A stretch of DNA of 33,025 nt from contig CAIQOK010000076.1 in NCBI GenBank assembly GCA_903873415.1, positions 1-33,025 of the forward strand, written 5' to 3'. The stretch's first letter is position 1, and the number at the start of each line of letters is the position of its first letter. Shown piece by piece: positions 1,090-8,576 of the stretch. The DNA comes from an uncultured Verrucomicrobiota bacterium (GTDB lineage Bacteria > Verrucomicrobiota > Verrucomicrobiia > Limisphaerales > CAIQOK01). The notes below the pieces were generated by a model. The model was not told where the DNA came from. It was given only the letters and a program-made list of their open reading frames with translations, and searched no databases. The translations under genes were made by a program, and so were the position numbers.

Positions 1090-2055
1090 TCACCAATCTG
1101 AGCGCGAAGCGTCGCGGGGTTTCTTCTGATCTCCCTGCCCCATGGGCAAAGGCCGGCCGGCCCCGAGCTTGTATCCAGCCAAAATGTCCGCGGCTTCTTG
1201 GGGCGAGATGGGCATTTCCTTGCCCTCGCGGCCCATCCCTTCTTCCTGGCCTGGATTGGGCCCGAAAGGTGAGTCCTCGTCCTGCTCCTCGTCCCCCGGC
1301 GCCCCGGGCGGCATGTTCGGGGCGGGGATCTTCCCCTTGAGCCCCTCCATCTTTTCATCCAGCTTCCCCTTCGCCCCAGCCAGCATGGCCCCGGCCTGCT
1401 GGAGCTGGTTGATCTTGTCCACCAGCCCTGCTATCGCACGATCGGTGGCATCGGCATTGAACTGGGCGTCCTCATCCACTCCCTGCAATTCCACCACACT
1501 TTTAAAATCCGCCGCGCCGCGCTGCCACTTGACCAGAACCGCTCCGTGCTCTTTGAGGGCGCGAGCCACCGCTTCGGTGGCGGCGCGCAGCTCCCGCCGG
1601 CTGCCGCGACCGCGCACATAGGCGGCCACCATTTTCTCCACTTCATTGGAAGCCAGAGCTTCCCCGGCATGCCGTGCCGTTTCGAGGGCGTTGCCGGCGG
1701 CGTCCTGCCCGCGCCCCGCCACCTGACTGCCCGAAGGTTCCTTCTTTAGTATCTCCGCCCCCTGGGCCACGCGGACGTTGCCTAAATTGAAAAGTGCGCG
1801 GGTCTGAATTTGCGGATTCTGGGTGGCCACCGCGTTTTGCAAAAGAGTCTCGGCCTCCTGCAGTTTGCCCGCTGACAGTTGGCGGGTGCCCGCATTGAAA
1901 AAATCACGGGGCGACCGCAGCGCAGCCTCTTGAGACCCAACTTGCTCCGCCTGCAGACTTAACCCAAGGCAAAAAACCATGGCGCAAAGAATCATGCGGC
2001 GGGGCCGGCGGACGGGATGGCAACTGACCCGGCTGATGACAGACCCGGAAATCAT
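1090..2055 (-). CDS. TPR-repeat protein of the Bat operon (BatC-like)
   Basis: This 321-residue protein has a basic N-terminus and a hydrophobic signal segment (about residues 21-36, ending SLQA), so export is likely. Residues 50-110 contain a TPR-like region (FFNAGTRQLSAGKLQEAETL, then TRALFNLGNVRVAQG), the usual signature of the small TPR protein between BatB and BatD. The C-terminal third is Gly/Pro/acidic and low complexity, and it ends in ...SRSDW, reminiscent of the Trp-ended tails of Bat TPR proteins. Its ATG overlaps the batB stop by 4 bp (ATGA, 2052-2055), which implies translational coupling. TPR proteins of this operon are thought to scaffold the VWA complex. The exact Bat letter (C or E) is uncertain. 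Confidence 0.8.
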   Translation of the reverse strand: MISGSVISRVSCHPVRRPRRMILCAMVFCLGLSLQAEQVGSQEAALRSPRDFFNAGTRQLSAGKLQEAETLLQNAVATQNPQIQTRALFNLGNVRVAQGAEILKKEPSGSQVAGRGQDAAGNALETARHAGEALASNEVEKMVAAYVRGRGSRRELRAATEAVARALKEHGAVLVKWQRGAADFKSVVELQGVDEDAQFNADATDRAIAGLVDKINQLQQAGAMLAGAKGKLDEKMEGLKGKIPAPNMPPGAPGDEEQDEDSPFGPNPGQEEGMGREGKEMPISPQEAADILAGYKLGAGRPLPMGQGDQKKPRDASRSDW

Positions 2056-3080
2056 GGACGGCCCTCCCTGCGCCGGGTGCCCAGCAGCGGTTCCACGACA
2101 AGGATCAAGAGCGCGGCGGCCAGCGGGAAATGAAACCGGTCAACCCCCAACTTGCGCTCGCGGGCGGCGTCTTCGCGGGCTGTCAACGCCGTGACGGCCA
2201 ACTCCACCTTGGCCAGACCCTGCCCCGGACCGCCGAGCGGAAAATAGTCACCGCGGGTGGCCCGGGCGATCTGCCCCAGAATCTGCTCATCCAAACGACT
2301 GTGCACAATCCCACCCTTGCGATCCCGCGCCACAACAGATTGCCCGGCCTCGTTCATGAAATGAATCTCCGACCCCGATGGCGTTCCCACCCCGATGGTA
2401 AAAACAACGACACCCTGATTGGCGAGGGATTCGGCCATCTTCACCCCCCCCTGCTCCAGATCTTCGCCGTCGGTGAGCAGAACGATCAACTTGCGCCGGC
2501 TGTCCTTGTCCATGGCCCGAAAGGCCTCCTCCAACCCGCGACCCACGTCCGTACCGGGCACGGTGATGATTCTCTCATCCACGGCACGAAGGGCGTCCTC
2601 AAACGCGCCATAATCAAAGGTCAGCGGACACTGTAAGAAGGCTTGTCCGGCAAAGGCCACCAGGCCGACGCGCCCGGTGCCGCGGCGGCGCACAAAATCC
2701 AGCAGGGCGTAGCGTGCGCGCTCCAGCCGGTTGGGTGCCACATCCGCGGCCAGCATGCTCCGGGAACAATCGAGCACAAACACGACATCTTCCCCGGCCA
2801 ACTGCTGTTCCCTCGAAGCCTCTTCGCCCCATTGCGGGCGGGCCAGCGCCAGGCCAAGGCCGGCCACCGCAGCCACGAGCAAAGCCTCCTTGATCCTGCG
2901 CCGCGCGGGACTGTGGGAGCGGGTCAGCTCCGCCGAAAACCGGGGGCTGGCAAGCAGGGTGAGCTGCCGGCGGCGCGCCCGGGACGCATACCCGTGGAGA
3001 AGGATGAGCAGCAACGGCAGGAGCGCCGGCACCCAGAGCCAGCGCGGGTCGGCGAAATGGGGCTGGGCGAAATCCATCAT
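2052..3080 (-). CDS. batB: BatB-like VWA-domain membrane protein
   Basis: This is a 342-residue protein with N-terminal membrane segments (about 14-29 and 66-80), a von Willebrand factor A domain and a C-terminal membrane helix (FHFPLAAALLILVVEPLLG). The metal-ion-dependent adhesion site is intact: DCSRS at residues 104-108, GTDVG, and LLTDGEDLEQGG. The frame is open further upstream, but the ATG at 3080 (MMDFAQPHFADPRWLW) overlaps the batA stop as ATGA and begins at the usual 'F-x-x-P-x-W-L-W' Bat N-terminus, so it is preferred. BatA and BatB form an inner-membrane complex linked to aerotolerance and stress survival in Bacteroides and Leptospira; the precise substrate is unknown. Confidence 0.9.
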   Translation of the reverse strand: MMDFAQPHFADPRWLWVPALLPLLLILLHGYASRARRRQLTLLASPRFSAELTRSHSPARRRIKEALLVAAVAGLGLALARPQWGEEASREQQLAGEDVVFVLDCSRSMLAADVAPNRLERARYALLDFVRRRGTGRVGLVAFAGQAFLQCPLTFDYGAFEDALRAVDERIITVPGTDVGRGLEEAFRAMDKDSRRKLIVLLTDGEDLEQGGVKMAESLANQGVVVFTIGVGTPSGSEIHFMNEAGQSVVARDRKGGIVHSRLDEQILGQIARATRGDYFPLGGPGQGLAKVELAVTALTAREDAARERKLGVDRFHFPLAAALLILVVEPLLGTRRREGRP

Positions 3081-4117
3081 GGCACGCGACGAAAACGGGT
3101 GTTGGCGAGAACAAGCTCCAGCGCGAAGAGCGCCAGCGCCGCCAGAAGCGGCCACTCAAAGAGCGGCGTGTAGGTGGTATAACGCTTAAGCTTGACCTCT
3201 GTCTTCTCCAACCGGTCTATGTCGTCATAAATCCGGCGCAGCTCGGTCCGGTTGGTGGCCCGATAAAACCTGCCTTTCGAAAGCCCCGCCATTTTGCCCA
3301 GAACCTCGTAGTTGGCAGGCTGCAGCGTCATGGTGGGAATCAAGTTGCCCGCCGCATCCAGCTCCAGCTTCCCGTTGGCCGGATTGAATTTGGGCAGCTG
3401 GCAGGGCTCCTCAATCCCGATGCCGATGGTGTAAATCTTCGCACCCAGTGCCGCCGCGAGCTGCGCCGCCGGCACCGGATCAATGTCACCGCGGTTATTG
3501 TCCCCATCGGTCAGCAGAATGATAATGCGGCTCTTACCCTCCTTGATTGCCGCCAGGCGCTTGGCCGCGCAGGCCGTCGCGTCCCCGATCGCGGTGCCCA
3601 AATCCCGGATCAACCCCACAAACAGACGATCCAGATTCCGGATCAGCCAATCGTGGTTGAGGGTCAGCGGACTGGCGACGTAAGGAACGGCGGAGAAAGC
3701 AATCAACCCAAGCCTGTCATTGGGCCGTTTGTGAATGAAATCTTCCAGCACCTCGCGGGCCAGCTCGAATCGGGACACCCGCTCCTGCGGGCCGCTCATG
3801 TCCTGGGCCATCATGGACCAGGACAAATCAAGCACGAGCATGATATCAACGCCGCTGGTATTGGTTTCAGTGCGGTCATTGGCAAAGCGCGGACCGGCCA
3901 ATGCGACGATGCACAGCCCGGCCACGGGCAATCGCAGGAACATCATCCAGCGCCCTGCCGCGCCTCTGGCCTTGGCCCCGGCGGCGCGGGCCAAATCCGA
4001 ACTGGAGAATCTCAAGGCGGAAGGCCGGCCGATTCTTCCGCGCAAAAACGCATAGATCGGCAGCAGCGCCAGCAGAAGCAGCAACCACGGATATTGAAAC
4101 TGAAAATTCCCGCTCAT
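3077..4117 (-). CDS. batA: BatA-like VWA-domain membrane protein
   Basis: This 346-residue protein has the same architecture as its neighbour: an N-terminal 'FQYPWLLLLLALLPIYAFLR' helix (about 7-26), a second helix near 59-75, a VWA domain and a C-terminal helix (WPLLAALALFALELVLA). MIDAS residues are visible as DLSWS at 97-101, a threonine in DLGTAIGDA, and LLTDGDNN. The two tandem VWA proteins are the diagnostic core of Bat operons and are expected to act with the MoxR ATPase in folding or inserting an envelope complex. The start overlaps the DUF4381-like gene by ATGA (4114-4117). All catalytic-type positions look intact. Confidence 0.92.
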   Translation of the reverse strand: MSGNFQFQYPWLLLLLALLPIYAFLRGRIGRPSALRFSSSDLARAAGAKARGAAGRWMMFLRLPVAGLCIVALAGPRFANDRTETNTSGVDIMLVLDLSWSMMAQDMSGPQERVSRFELAREVLEDFIHKRPNDRLGLIAFSAVPYVASPLTLNHDWLIRNLDRLFVGLIRDLGTAIGDATACAAKRLAAIKEGKSRIIILLTDGDNNRGDIDPVPAAQLAAALGAKIYTIGIGIEEPCQLPKFNPANGKLELDAAGNLIPTMTLQPANYEVLGKMAGLSKGRFYRATNRTELRRIYDDIDRLEKTEVKLKRYTTYTPLFEWPLLAALALFALELVLANTRFRRVP

Positions 4118-4776
4118 GGTTTCTGCTCCGGTCCCGGGCCGCCCCCCCCGCCGGAGGCTCTTTGGGCGCGGCTGCTTTCGGCCAGTTCAACCAAGTGCAG
4201 CGCACCAGCCGCCGCACTGCCACCCTGCGCGGGGGCCGACAGGGCGAATTTCCGCTCGTCGCAGCGCCGCAGAAAATCCCCCACTTGCAACACCAGCCCC
4301 GGATCGAGCCGGTTGCGCGCGGCGATGTCCCGACAGAACTCGGCGGTGGTTCGCTCGCCGGGAGGCAATTCCAGAGTGACGGCGAAATACCGGCAAAGCG
4401 TCCGCGAAATCCGGCTCAAGACCCGGCCGTTTTCCGGCTCGCCTCGCAGCGCTTCCAACCCTTTGCGGGCGGCCATCTCCGCAGGCTCAGGCATCATCTT
4501 CGCTTTACGCATCACCCATCTCAGCCAGATGCACAACCCAACGGCCAGCGAGAGTCCCGCCAACGTCAGCGTCCAGGCATGGCGCTCGCCAAACGAGGGA
4601 ATAATCTCCGGCCTGGGCGGACGCAAAACAGGCAACTCGTCCCCGCCGCCCGCCGGCCCGGCCATCAGGACGTCGACCGCGCCTTGGAGCATCACACCTA
4701 GAAACATCAAGCGCCCCGCCCCCCAGCGCGGGATCCAACTCCAGACCGGAAATCCCCCCCCGTGCCAGGGCTTCAT
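4114..4776 (-). CDS. DUF4381-like membrane protein of the MoxR/Bat operon
   Basis: This 220-residue protein has a hydrophobic N-terminal stretch (about 22-40), a clear transmembrane helix at about 67-89 (AWTLTLAGLSLAVGLCIWLR), and a cytoplasmic helical domain with 'LSRISRTLCRYFAVTLELPPG' followed by 'TTAEFCRDIA'. Small proteins of this layout (DUF4381-type) sit between DUF58 and batA in MoxR operons, and that is the position here. The ATG overlaps the end of the DUF58 gene by 4 bp. Two 8-base C/G homopolymers encode glycine runs near each end of the protein (4142-4149 and 4754-4761). Molecular function is unknown; the assignment is mostly positional and topological. Confidence 0.72.
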   Translation of the reverse strand: MKPWHGGGFPVWSWIPRWGAGRLMFLGVMLQGAVDVLMAGPAGGGDELPVLRPPRPEIIPSFGERHAWTLTLAGLSLAVGLCIWLRWVMRKAKMMPEPAEMAARKGLEALRGEPENGRVLSRISRTLCRYFAVTLELPPGERTTAEFCRDIAARNRLDPGLVLQVGDFLRRCDERKFALSAPAQGGSAAAGALHLVELAESSRAQRASGGGGGPGPEQKP

Positions 4777-5690
4777 CCACGCCTCCTTCCCCGCCGGGTT
4801 TCGAAGAAATGCTGGAGTTTCTGGGCAAACGGCTCGGCGCTGCTGAACCGAAGTGTATCCACCCCGGCCCGGTTGAAAGCGCGGTCCAGTCCGGCCAGTC
4901 GCTCTGAGTTGATGCGGGCGAACTTTTCCCGCACGGCGGCCCGGTTGGAATCCAGTTCCAGCAGCTCCCCCGTTTCGGCATCCTCAATTCCAAGCAGCCC
5001 GGCGGCGGGCAGAACATTCTCGCGGGGATCATGCAGGTGCAGGCAAACCAGATCGTGATGGGCGTTGGTGAGGCCTAATTCCTGAATGGCATCACGCGGC
5101 CCGCTGGAGCGCGCCGCCTCCGGCCCGACACTGTGCAGGAAATCCGTGAGCAGAAAAACCATGGAACGGCGGGGCAAAACGTGGTTGAGAAAGGTCAGCG
5201 CCGCCGTAATGTCCGTCCCCGGACGGCGGGGCTGAAAGGCGAGCAGCTCGCGCAAAATCCGCAGGATATGCCGGCGCCCTTTGCGGGCGGGAACAAACAA
5301 CTCCACCGTCTCACTGAAAAGCAACAGGGCCACCTTGTCGCTGCTGCGGGCCGCGGAAACGGCCAGCGTCCCCGCAATTTCCGCGGCGAACTCCCGCTTG
5401 CTGCGCTGTTGTGAACCAAAGGCCGAGGAGGCTGAAACATCCACGGCCAACACCACCGTCATCTCGCGCTCCTCACGGTAGCGTTTCACAAAAGGCCGCC
5501 CCATGCGATTGGTCACATTCCAATCAATCGTCCGCACATCGTCCCCCGGCATGTATTCCCGGAGCTCCTCGAAATCCATGCCGCGCCCCTTGAAATGACT
5601 CAGATACGCCCCCACCATCATGTCGTTGACCAACCGATTGGTGCGGGCCTCGACACGCCGGACGGATTCGAGCAACTCGGCAAGCGTCAT
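4773..5690 (-). CDS. DUF58 domain protein (MoxR partner, VWA-like)
   Basis: The protein is 305 residues from the ATG at 5690 and carries the canonical DUF58 signatures: RRVEARTNRLVNDMMVGAY near the N-terminus, FKGRGMDF, and REYMPGDDVRTIDWN at about residues 44-58. A VWA-like part follows with DVSAS (84-88), GTDITAAL and LLTDFLHS. The frame continues upstream to a TTG at 5759, which would add 23 residues, but family members normally begin about 10 residues before the 'RRxExRT' motif, so the ATG is preferred. DUF58 proteins work with MoxR ATPases in the same operon. It lies 97 bp downstream of moxR and overlaps the next gene by ATGA. Confidence 0.9.
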   Translation of the reverse strand: MTLAELLESVRRVEARTNRLVNDMMVGAYLSHFKGRGMDFEELREYMPGDDVRTIDWNVTNRMGRPFVKRYREEREMTVVLAVDVSASSAFGSQQRSKREFAAEIAGTLAVSAARSSDKVALLLFSETVELFVPARKGRRHILRILRELLAFQPRRPGTDITAALTFLNHVLPRRSMVFLLTDFLHSVGPEAARSSGPRDAIQELGLTNAHHDLVCLHLHDPRENVLPAAGLLGIEDAETGELLELDSNRAAVREKFARINSERLAGLDRAFNRAGVDTLRFSSAEPFAQKLQHFFETRRGRRRG

Positions 5691-5787
5691 GACATCCAAG
5701 TGACCGGGTTCAAGGACGGGAGCTTCGCCTGGCGACCGCAGCCGGAATGCCCCGGACAAGCTCCAGCTTGGGGCTGATCAGGCATGT

Positions 5788-6768
5788 TCACGGCACGGGC
5801 ACCGCATTGAAAATCTTCTGGATGATCGCATCGCTTGTCACCCCCTGCGCCTCGGCCTCATAGGTGAGAATGACCCGGTGCCGCAAGACGTCCGGACCGA
5901 TGCTCTTGATATCCTCGGGGGTGACATAGGAGCGCCCCTGCAACAAGGCCCAAGCCCGGGCGGCCACCGTCAGGAAGATGGTGGCCCGCGGCGAGGCTCC
6001 GAACTGGATGAAATGCTTGAGATCAAGCTTGTATTTCTCCGGCTGCCGCGTGGCGAACACCAAATGCACTATGTAATCACGCACCTTCTCATCCACATGA
6101 ATCTGATCCACCAGCTTGCGCGTCCGCAATATCTCGTCCAACCCCACCACCGCCTTGACTTTGGTTTCAGGCGCCGTGAAGGCCATCCGGTCCAGTATCT
6201 TGCGCTCCTCCTCGAACGAAGGGTAGTCCAGCAGGACCTTGAACATAAACCGGTCCACTTGCGCTTCGGGCAGCGGATAGGTGCCCTCTTGGTCGATGGG
6301 ATTCTCTGTGGCCAGCACGAGAAAAGGCGAGGGCAGCAGCATGGTCTCGCCGCCCAGCGTGACCTGTCGTTCCTGCATGGCCTCCAGCAACGCCGACTGC
6401 ACCTTGGCCGGCGCTCGGTTGATTTCGTCGGCCAGCAGCAGGTTGGCAAACACCGGCCCGCGCGTGGCATGATACTTGCCGTCCTGAGGATTATAAATCA
6501 ATGTCCCTACAATGTCGGCGGGGAGCAGGTCCGGAGTGAACTGGATGCGATGGAAAGTGGCGTGTATGGCGGAGGCAAGCATCCGCACGGAAAGTGTTTT
6601 GGCGAGCCCTGGAACCCCTTCCAGAAGGACATGGCCGTTGGCCAGCAGCCCCACCAGCAAGCGGTCCACCAGCTGCTCCTGGCCCACAATCACGCGGCCG
6701 ATTTCTTCCCGCAGGTTCTTGATCCAGACGTGGGCCGCCTGAACTTCTTCGTTCAACACTGTGTTCAT
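5788..6768 (-). CDS. moxR: MoxR-type AAA+ ATPase
   Basis: This 326-residue AAA+ protein has a Walker A GVPGLAKT at residues 51-58, Walker B LLLADEINRAP with Asp114/Glu115, the MoxR hallmark ALLEAMQERQVT, sensor 1 'VLATENPIDQEGTYPLPEAQ', and the C-terminal lid with FGASPRATI. The length is typical. MoxR ATPases act as chaperones that mature or insert complexes with VWA-domain partners, and five such partners or accessory genes follow directly. It is the promoter-proximal gene of the operon. A possible promoter is recorded at 6777-6805. Confidence 0.96.
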   Translation of the reverse strand: MNTVLNEEVQAAHVWIKNLREEIGRVIVGQEQLVDRLLVGLLANGHVLLEGVPGLAKTLSVRMLASAIHATFHRIQFTPDLLPADIVGTLIYNPQDGKYHATRGPVFANLLLADEINRAPAKVQSALLEAMQERQVTLGGETMLLPSPFLVLATENPIDQEGTYPLPEAQVDRFMFKVLLDYPSFEEERKILDRMAFTAPETKVKAVVGLDEILRTRKLVDQIHVDEKVRDYIVHLVFATRQPEKYKLDLKHFIQFGASPRATIFLTVAARAWALLQGRSYVTPEDIKSIGPDVLRHRVILTYEAEAQGVTSDAIIQKIFNAVPVP

Positions 6769-6848: not shown

Positions 6849-6885
6849 GAAAAAGAGCAGCCGGTTGAAGATCCACCGGCTGCTC
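6849..6885 (-). terminator. Intrinsic terminator of the RGG-like protein gene
   Basis: Two 11-base arms (GAGCAGCCGGT at 6855-6865 and its exact complement at 6875-6885) enclose a 9-base loop. On the minus strand the hairpin is followed at once by five T residues (6854-6850). It lies 14 bp beyond the stop codon of the upstream minus-strand gene and insulates that gene from moxR. Confidence 0.85.
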
Positions 6886-6899
6886 GTGATACAGAGAGA

Positions 6900-8576
6900 T
6901 TATTCGGACCGGGCTTCACCGGTGTGAGGGGCATCCACCGCGGGTGGTTGAGCCGCTTCGGCGGGAGCCGAAACTTGCACAGCCACAGGTGCTTCGGGCT
7001 CGGCTGGAAGGGGCTCCACAACGGCATCCAATTCCGCCGACGATTCGGTCAGGGGAGCGTCAACCGGAACCGGATGGGCTGGTATGTTTTCCTGCGCAGA
7101 CACCGGCTTGGCTTGAGCGGCGGGAGACTTCTTGGGTTGCGGGCGGGGCTGCTGAGGCGGCTTGGGCAGCGGCTTCTTGGCAGTCTCCAGCGTGCCGTTG
7201 GCAAATTCAATCACATGGCCTTGATGGATGAGCCAGTGCAAATCCATGATCACCGCAGACTGTTGTGGGCTGGCCTGAGCAGGCTCCGCAGGGGCGGGAA
7301 CCTCTCCGGACGCCGCCTCCGACGCAGCGGCGGGGGCAGTGACCGGGGCCAAGGCCTCAAGCAGCTTGCGCCGGGTGCACTTGGGCGTCTTGTCAATGAA
7401 GGCAATGATTTGCTTGATCATCTCCGAAACCGGAGTTGAATCCAGATCGAGGAAATGCGGACGCGCCACCGAGACATGGGTCAAGGTTTTGTTGACCTTG
7501 AAGAACTGCAATCCGTGTCCGGCAAATTGCTGGCTCAGAATGGTGGCCAACTGGAGGGGGAAGCGGCGCTGATCCTCGCAGGCCTGACGAACCAACTGGA
7601 GCAGGCCCGGGCTGCGCAGATTACGCGCCGCCACACCACCCAGCTTCACCCGGTCCACCGGCTTGATGATCGCGTCCTTGTGCACCTCGCGGAAATGCTT
7701 CTCCACCTCCTCCAAGCTGTGAAGGCGCAGCGGTTCGGGAATGTTCAGCCCGATGTATTCGGTCTTCCAACTCAGTCCCTCGACCCACTTCTTGACCACT
7801 TCCTCGTCGCGGACGATGCGGACCCGGGCCTTGAAGGCGTCGAAGGGCATGCGGGCAAAGCGCTCGGCGTGCAGCTTGCGCAATTGGTTCTGGTAATCGT
7901 GATAATTGGGCGGACCGAGAATCTCGCCGCTGAAGCCGCACTGGGCCACGAAAGTATAACTCCCCTTGGGCGGTTCGGTGGCCGTGCGCTCGGACTGATA
8001 GAAGGTGTCGAAATGCTTCTTGAGCACATGCGTCACAGCCTCGTTCTCAGAAACCCAAAGTGTGTCGTCCATGGCGCAGAGAAAGAGCTGCTGCGCCACG
8101 CTGCCGTCAGGCCGTTTCTCCAAAGCAAAGGAAATTACGTAGCGCTCCGGCTTCTCCAGAATAAGCCGCGCGATGTCAAACAGCGGAAACGCCCGGCCCG
8201 TGGACTTGATTTGACGGGCCAGCGATTCAACCCCTTTTTCCTCCGGCATCAGAGTCACACTCACCTCCGGCAACGCGGGCGGCGGCTCCGGACGCTCGCG
8301 CCTCTCAGGACGGTCCCCGCCCCCACTGCCCATTGGGCCACGGCCACCCTGACCGCCTGGACGGTTGCGGTCGCCCTCGCGCCGTGGAGCGGCACCGCGA
8401 TCCCCTTCCCTCCGGGGAGGCCGCGGACCACCGCGCCGGTCGCGGTCGTCGCCACGCCTAGGGCGCTCGTCGCCACCCTCGAAGTGGGCATAAGATTTAG
8501 GGGTAGCGGACTCCTGCGCCCATGCGGGCAGAAAGAGTTTTTCCAGATCCAGTGCGTTGTCAGGCAATGTGCTCAT
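6900..8576 (-). CDS. Unnamed protein with Arg/Gly-rich N-terminal region
   Basis: The protein is 558 residues from the ATG at 8576 (MSTLPDNALDLEKLFLPAW); the frame stays open 26 codons upstream, but without an ATG or ribosome site. Three parts are visible. Residues about 34-98 are low complexity, with RGG/RRG/RREGDR repeats like RNA-binding tails. Residues about 105-420 are an ordered mixed alpha/beta domain that includes CAMDDTLWVSENEAVTHVL, VAQCGFSGEILGPPNYHDYQ and HAERFARMPFDAFKARVRIV. The tail of about 110 residues is Pro/Ala-rich. No signal peptide or membrane helix is seen, so it is probably cytoplasmic. I do not recognise a named family; similar sequences seem to be confined to Verrucomicrobia (recollection, not a search). 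RNA binding is an inference from composition only. The gene is monocistronic with a strong terminator. Confidence 0.85.
   Translation of the reverse strand: MSTLPDNALDLEKLFLPAWAQESATPKSYAHFEGGDERPRRGDDRDRRGGPRPPRREGDRGAAPRREGDRNRPGGQGGRGPMGSGGGDRPERRERPEPPPALPEVSVTLMPEEKGVESLARQIKSTGRAFPLFDIARLILEKPERYVISFALEKRPDGSVAQQLFLCAMDDTLWVSENEAVTHVLKKHFDTFYQSERTATEPPKGSYTFVAQCGFSGEILGPPNYHDYQNQLRKLHAERFARMPFDAFKARVRIVRDEEVVKKWVEGLSWKTEYIGLNIPEPLRLHSLEEVEKHFREVHKDAIIKPVDRVKLGGVAARNLRSPGLLQLVRQACEDQRRFPLQLATILSQQFAGHGLQFFKVNKTLTHVSVARPHFLDLDSTPVSEMIKQIIAFIDKTPKCTRRKLLEALAPVTAPAAASEAASGEVPAPAEPAQASPQQSAVIMDLHWLIHQGHVIEFANGTLETAKKPLPKPPQQPRPQPKKSPAAQAKPVSAQENIPAHPVPVDAPLTESSAELDAVVEPLPAEPEAPVAVQVSAPAEAAQPPAVDAPHTGEARSE

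Follow-up and report, generated by a model that had tools for sequence, protein, structure and literature searches.

An undescribed Verrucomicrobiota protein family with an Arg/Gly-rich arm, a zinc-finger-like unit and a winged helix as a candidate nucleic-acid-binding protein

For zinc fingers and winged helices, DNA is as frequent a ligand as RNA, and the winged helix is a common fold. Verrucomicrobiota are plentiful in soil, in water and in the gut, and to our knowledge little has been learned about which proteins handle RNA specifically in this phylum. Among eukaryotes, RGG-box RNA-binding proteins of the CIRP/RBM3 type place an Arg/Gly-rich disordered segment beside a folded nucleic-acid-binding part. 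Among bacteria, the Ros/MucR family (Ros, MucR, Ml1-Ml5) carries a C2H2-type finger in which the second cysteine can be replaced by aspartate, giving CysAspHis2 fingers, or in which zinc can be lost and the fold kept (PMC9779718).

The protein described here resembles both of these systems in part. It is encoded on the minus strand of the window, a stretch of Verrucomicrobiota DNA of 33,025 nucleotides, by an open reading frame that starts with an ATG at 8576 and runs for 558 codons plus a stop. The features of the gene and its product are as follows.

6900-8576, minus strand: the gene, 558 aa plus stop, from the open reading frame list and translation; orthologues show 46-65% identity across the order
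8514-8552, minus strand: N-terminal motif F/L-x-P-x-W-A, residues 9-21 (LDLEKLFLPAWAQ), from conservation across relatives
8277-8477, minus strand: Arg/Gly/Pro/Asp-rich disordered arm, residues 34-100, from composition and shuffles; mostly pLDDT below 50
7449-8276, minus strand: central ordered domain, residues 101-376, without a recognised fold as a whole, from model pLDDT and structure searches
8013-8078, minus strand: zinc-finger-like unit C167-x2-D170-x12-H183-x4-H188, from the ligand pattern in relatives, weak zf-C2H2 matches and a Kaiso alignment
7842-7970, minus strand: best conserved module, residues 203-245 (PPKGSYTFVAQCGFSGEILGPPNYHDYQ...MPFDAF), from conservation across the phylum
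7167-7439, minus strand: predicted C-terminal winged-helix domain, residues 380-470, from VIA Z scores of 8.0-8.8; low-confidence insert at about 412-436
6903-7166, minus strand: Pro/Ala-rich, partly acidic disordered tail, residues 471-558, mostly of low pLDDT and poorly conserved
6850-6885, minus strand: intrinsic terminator, an 11-pair stem followed by UUUUU, folding at -23.4 kcal/mol

The gene is present in a single copy in its own genome. Its upstream neighbours are RND efflux genes in divergent orientation and its downstream neighbours a MoxR/DUF58/VWA cluster, and both sets look unrelated to it. Because the upstream genes are divergent and the terminator divides the gene from the downstream cluster, the gene looks monocistronic in the window genome. 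A sequence-only reading of this DNA had proposed a monocistronic gene with a strong terminator, as expected for an abundant product. The terminator was indeed strong (-23.4 kcal/mol, z -4.0, with a U-run; 0 of 200 shuffles were equally stable), and the single-gene arrangement holds for the window genome but not for the 35 of 106 loci of the order in which a helicase gene comes directly after it. Abundance found no support, since codon usage is uninformative in this genome, where the genes for ribosomal proteins do not score above ordinary ones. The downstream MoxR, DUF58 and VWA-domain proteins are encoded in one cluster (1090-6768, minus strand), which we take to be of the kind called Bat/aerotolerance operons.

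Orthologues were found in 37 of 39 near relatives. Profile searches detected the family in 109 of 141 genomes from the class and, across the phylum, in 86 of 145, lineages of other classes included. Scanning genome contigs with patterns taken from one sequence yielded a list of 80 loci, almost all of them titled Verrucomicrobia or subgroups; a scan of this kind is no test of distant phyla. In some lineages of the phylum the searches did not find the family, including genomes of 0.9 Mb and a family with genomes of 2.2-2.5 Mb, and no viral copies of the gene were found. The central domain gave no significant family-wide match to Pfam, NCBIfam or PHROGs, for the window protein or its relatives; the weak domain-library hits were to unrelated families, each in only 1-4 members. 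No PDB sequence matched the protein or either of the profiles A1 and A2, and the Pfam and NCBIfam scans matched neither a catalytic family nor the RNA-binding families RRM, KH, S1, cold-shock, Hfq and ProQ. The expectation that the domain belongs to no recognised family was thus borne out in Pfam, NCBIfam, PHROGs and PDB sequences, with no significant match in the domain collections to a characterised non-RNA family, and its lineage-limited character is supported by the genome counts. A literature search found no paper on the family, nor was it identified in the portion available of a paper on PVC signature proteins (PMC3444138). The TSR3 paper (PMC4275035) was set aside; it has RGG arms and zinc fingers, but deals with a different domain. 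Judged from sequence, this appears to be an undescribed, phylum-restricted family assembled from known kinds of parts. The single copy and the retention in near relatives and across the class are what a housekeeping factor would show, and a single-copy family found in most of a class and in other classes, for which no curated entry was found, is a candidate for a core function outside the model bacteria.

The arm had been likened to eukaryotic RGG tails, and its composition fits that description. Across its 67 positions (residues 34-100) there are 19 Arg, 17 Gly, 12 Pro and 13 Asp/Glu, with no aromatic residues in the window copy. Among relatives, 98 of 115 have a 60-residue stretch in which R+G make up at least 45%, against 3 of 471 neighbouring ORFs of at least 200 aa, and some of those three resemble wrong-frame ORFs. 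In other classes the arm persists with about 28% Arg+Lys. The arm keeps its positive net charge (+4 to +14); what is conserved is composition, not sequence. Against composition shuffles, the arm contains one RGG (1.2 expected) and four RG (4.8 expected), whereas its two RREGDR units, and DR, exceed the shuffled expectation. The same pattern holds when 91 relatives are summed: RG falls below expectation (302 observed, 368 expected), and DR (279 observed, 143 expected) is the only pair clearly over-represented. The Arg/Gly richness, the RREGDR units and their conservation therefore stand, but the RGG box does not, as RG and RGG are not above composition, and the likeness to eukaryotic tails extends to composition and not to motif enrichment. 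Unlike the eukaryotic proteins, the Verrucomicrobiota protein has no RRM or KH domain, and its arm combines a lack of RG/RGG enrichment with many Asp/Glu/Pro and few or no aromatics. By its sequence it is a cationic Arg/Gly/Asp-rich arm, a real and conserved trait, and no true RGG box.

The parallel with the Ros/MucR proteins lies in residues 167-188. Of 116 relatives in the order, 107 show the ligand pattern CxxD..HxxxxH. An intact CxxC..Hx3-5H is seen in 17 of the 20 that come from other classes (and at the locus L145), and in most other orders of the class at least one zinc ligand is gone. The Pfam zf-C2H2 profile matches relatives at this site below threshold, the best at 18.1 bits against a cut-off of 25.2, so that neither the best relative nor the window protein, which drew no match in the scan and has CxxD..HxxxxH in place of Cx2C-x12-Hx3-5H, reaches the curated score. 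In the predicted model, 39 residues can be superposed on a Kaiso zinc finger at 1.7 A (Z 3.7). No single one of these observations is decisive, but jointly the ligand patterns, the sub-threshold profile matches and the Kaiso alignment make a zinc-finger origin likely. The CxxD form of this order may still bind zinc, by analogy with the CysAspHis2 fingers of some Ros/MucR proteins, and in several other orders, where the ligands are gone, the fold probably stands without metal. No Ros/MucR profile matched in Pfam and NCBIfam scans of the window protein and of sets of 41, 34 and 9 relatives, and the two families share no sequence kinship. Moreover, the present proteins are 500-600 aa long and combine an Arg/Gly arm with a GPPNxH module and, at the C-terminus, a winged helix, and their hosts are Verrucomicrobiota, not alphaproteobacteria. 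The shared change in the zinc finger looks convergent. The family forms a natural bacterial C2H2 series, from CxxC through CxxD to no ligands, in which the protein is still conserved; it parallels the Ros/MucR measurements and makes the metal-independence of the fold testable. A second His-x4-His pair, H294 and H299 (residues 294-299, window 7680-7697), is invariant or nearly so in the order (116 and 114 of 116 relatives, respectively) but not outside it, and might be what is left of a second finger-like unit.

The ordered region as a whole proved more extensive than first supposed. The sequence-only reading had placed a conserved ordered domain of about 300 residues at 105-420; such a region exists, but its limits are about 101 to 470, and three features had gone unnoticed: the N-terminal motif, the zinc finger and the winged helix at the C-terminus. 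Modelled alone, residues 101-378 gave a mean pLDDT of 87 and a pTM of 0.65. Foldseek searches with the full model and with residues 101-378 returned nothing below E 0.2 (rows for MHC class I and the proteasome were discarded, with TM below 0.15), and the best VIA Z for residues 101-378 was 4.1. In these searches no PDB structure matched the predicted central domain as a whole, though such weak rows cannot prove a new fold. Within it, the module at residues 203-245 follows the pattern PPKG..C..SG..LGPPNxHxYQ, in which G221, P222, N224 and H226 vary little or not at all across the phylum. A catalytic Cys-His-Asn triad of C213, H226 and N224 was considered and dropped, as the cysteine is missing in some relatives.

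Residues 380-470 of the predicted model match many winged helices, among them those of MarR, MecI, Fur, ScpB and Rpa2, at VIA Z 8.0-8.8 over 60-70 residues, which identifies the fold. Identity to these known domains is about 7-19%, without clear sequence kinship, and the Verrucomicrobiota domain differs in its low-confidence insert.

At the other end of the protein, the motif F/L-x-P-x-W-A is found in 112 of 116 relatives in the order, in 20 of 20 from other classes and in 13 of 19 from other orders (16 of 19 in a looser form), and L11, P17 and W19 are invariant in alignment A1. A short conserved peptide ahead of a disordered arm is a typical docking site, and from its sequence residues 9-21 are likely to be a docking peptide.

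The surroundings of the gene in other genomes offer a further clue. Among the 106 loci of the order with enough flanking sequence, the next gene on the same strand encodes an orthologous RhlE-like DEAD-box RNA helicase in 35, with an ATGA stop-start overlap in 7 of these; there were no downstream helicase copies on the opposite strand. These helicases, which are frequent neighbours and not homologues of the protein studied here, are one set of orthologues, at 77-87% identity if the query's own locus is set apart. In the window genome the orthologue (79% identity) is located elsewhere. The recA gene lies upstream in 23 of the 106 loci, and 14 have both neighbours. On the tree, 14 changes are needed for the helicase neighbour and 8 for recA, which fits an ancestral order recA-gene-helicase that was broken many times; the 35 helicase loci are clustered on the tree and so are not independent events. 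No neighbours recurred among the loci sampled outside the order. Nor is there a strict co-occurrence of gene and helicase across genomes: three genomes have the helicase with the gene not found (G024, G025 and G133), and two have the gene with no close helicase found (G016 and G021). In five others (G045, G051, G054, G063 and G068) neither a close DEAD-box helicase nor the gene was found, an observation confounded by lineage and genome size.

The protein probably binds RNA or DNA, and RNA is the more likely ligand. RNA binding is plausible, as read from sequence, given the cationic arm, the zinc-finger remnant, the winged helix and the DEAD-box helicase neighbour, and it is this neighbour, sometimes translationally coupled, that tips the balance toward RNA. 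We give about equal weight to belief and doubt in the reading that this protein, restricted to the phylum, binds nucleic acid without being an enzyme and most likely serves a DEAD-box RNA helicase as an RNA-binding partner. The N-terminal peptide would dock on a protein partner, while the arm would make loose, sequence-independent contacts with RNA and increase local concentration. The folded core, with its zinc-finger-derived unit, GPPNxH module and winged helix, would supply the specific contact, probably to a structured RNA (rRNA or mRNA hairpins, for example) that the helicase might then remodel. The anatomy and the distribution are what the sequences and models support directly, and every one of these functional steps is conjectural. 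Counting against a partner of the helicase that binds RNA, the helicase link is confined to this order, absent in the window genome and not accompanied by strict co-occurrence, no RNA-binding family is matched, RG pairs occur at the level of composition, and recA is upstream in 23 of 106 loci.

That same recA neighbour, together with the tendency of zinc fingers and winged helices to bind DNA, keeps DNA in consideration as the ligand. A nucleoid or transcription protein, in which zinc finger and winged helix sit on duplex DNA and the arm adds non-specific affinity after the logic of Ros/MucR, is in our estimate somewhat unlikely. The winged-helix matches are mostly to DNA-binding regulators (MarR, MecI, Fur), and CysAspHis2 fingers do occur in the DNA-binding Ros/MucR proteins (PMC9779718); yet the helicase is a commoner neighbour than recA and partly coupled in translation, the Ros/MucR profile goes unmatched and the zinc ligands have been freely lost in several orders.

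A phylum-specific ribosome-associated or assembly factor, whose arm would grip rRNA while its N-terminal peptide attaches to a ribosomal or assembly protein, would account for the broad single-copy retention and the helicase neighbour, and residues 205-270 recurrently, if very weakly, resemble eukaryotic ribosomal protein eL20 (E 0.5-3, Z about 3). However, these structural rows are at noise level, no ribosomal Pfam profile hits and in several genomes of the phylum the searches did not find the gene; eL20 identity was rejected and kept only as a lead, and such a factor appears improbable. That the protein is chiefly a scaffold, whose zinc finger and winged helix make protein contacts and whose arm is a spacer, is very improbable, for although the N-terminal W motif is kept more widely than the zinc ligands and the structural neighbours include winged helices of ScpB, ESCRT-II and cullins, a mere spacer has no need of a net positive charge.

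The preferred reading, of an RNA-binding helicase partner, can be carried further. It is possible, though we advance it tentatively, that the family is a phylum-wide RNA-remodelling factor not described before. It would act as a cofactor of the helicase, and its C2H2 finger, still intact in other classes, would have turned CysAspHis2 or metal-free and be joined to an Arg/Gly arm and a winged helix. If true, such a cofactor would be an architectural bacterial counterpart to eukaryotic RNP assembly proteins.

Arg/Gly-rich extensions in this genome are not confined to the protein studied here. On contig C92 of the same genome, a gene at 5861-6524 on the minus strand (L192), which by position and sequence looks like that of ribosomal protein uS5, carries GGPRGGQQGGRGRRK in an extension at its N-terminus. 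A second DEAD-box helicase of this genome, on contig C60 (L183), has an Arg/Gly-rich tail at its C-terminus (QGGRTQGRGGGGG), while L181, the orthologue of the neighbouring helicase, has no such tail.
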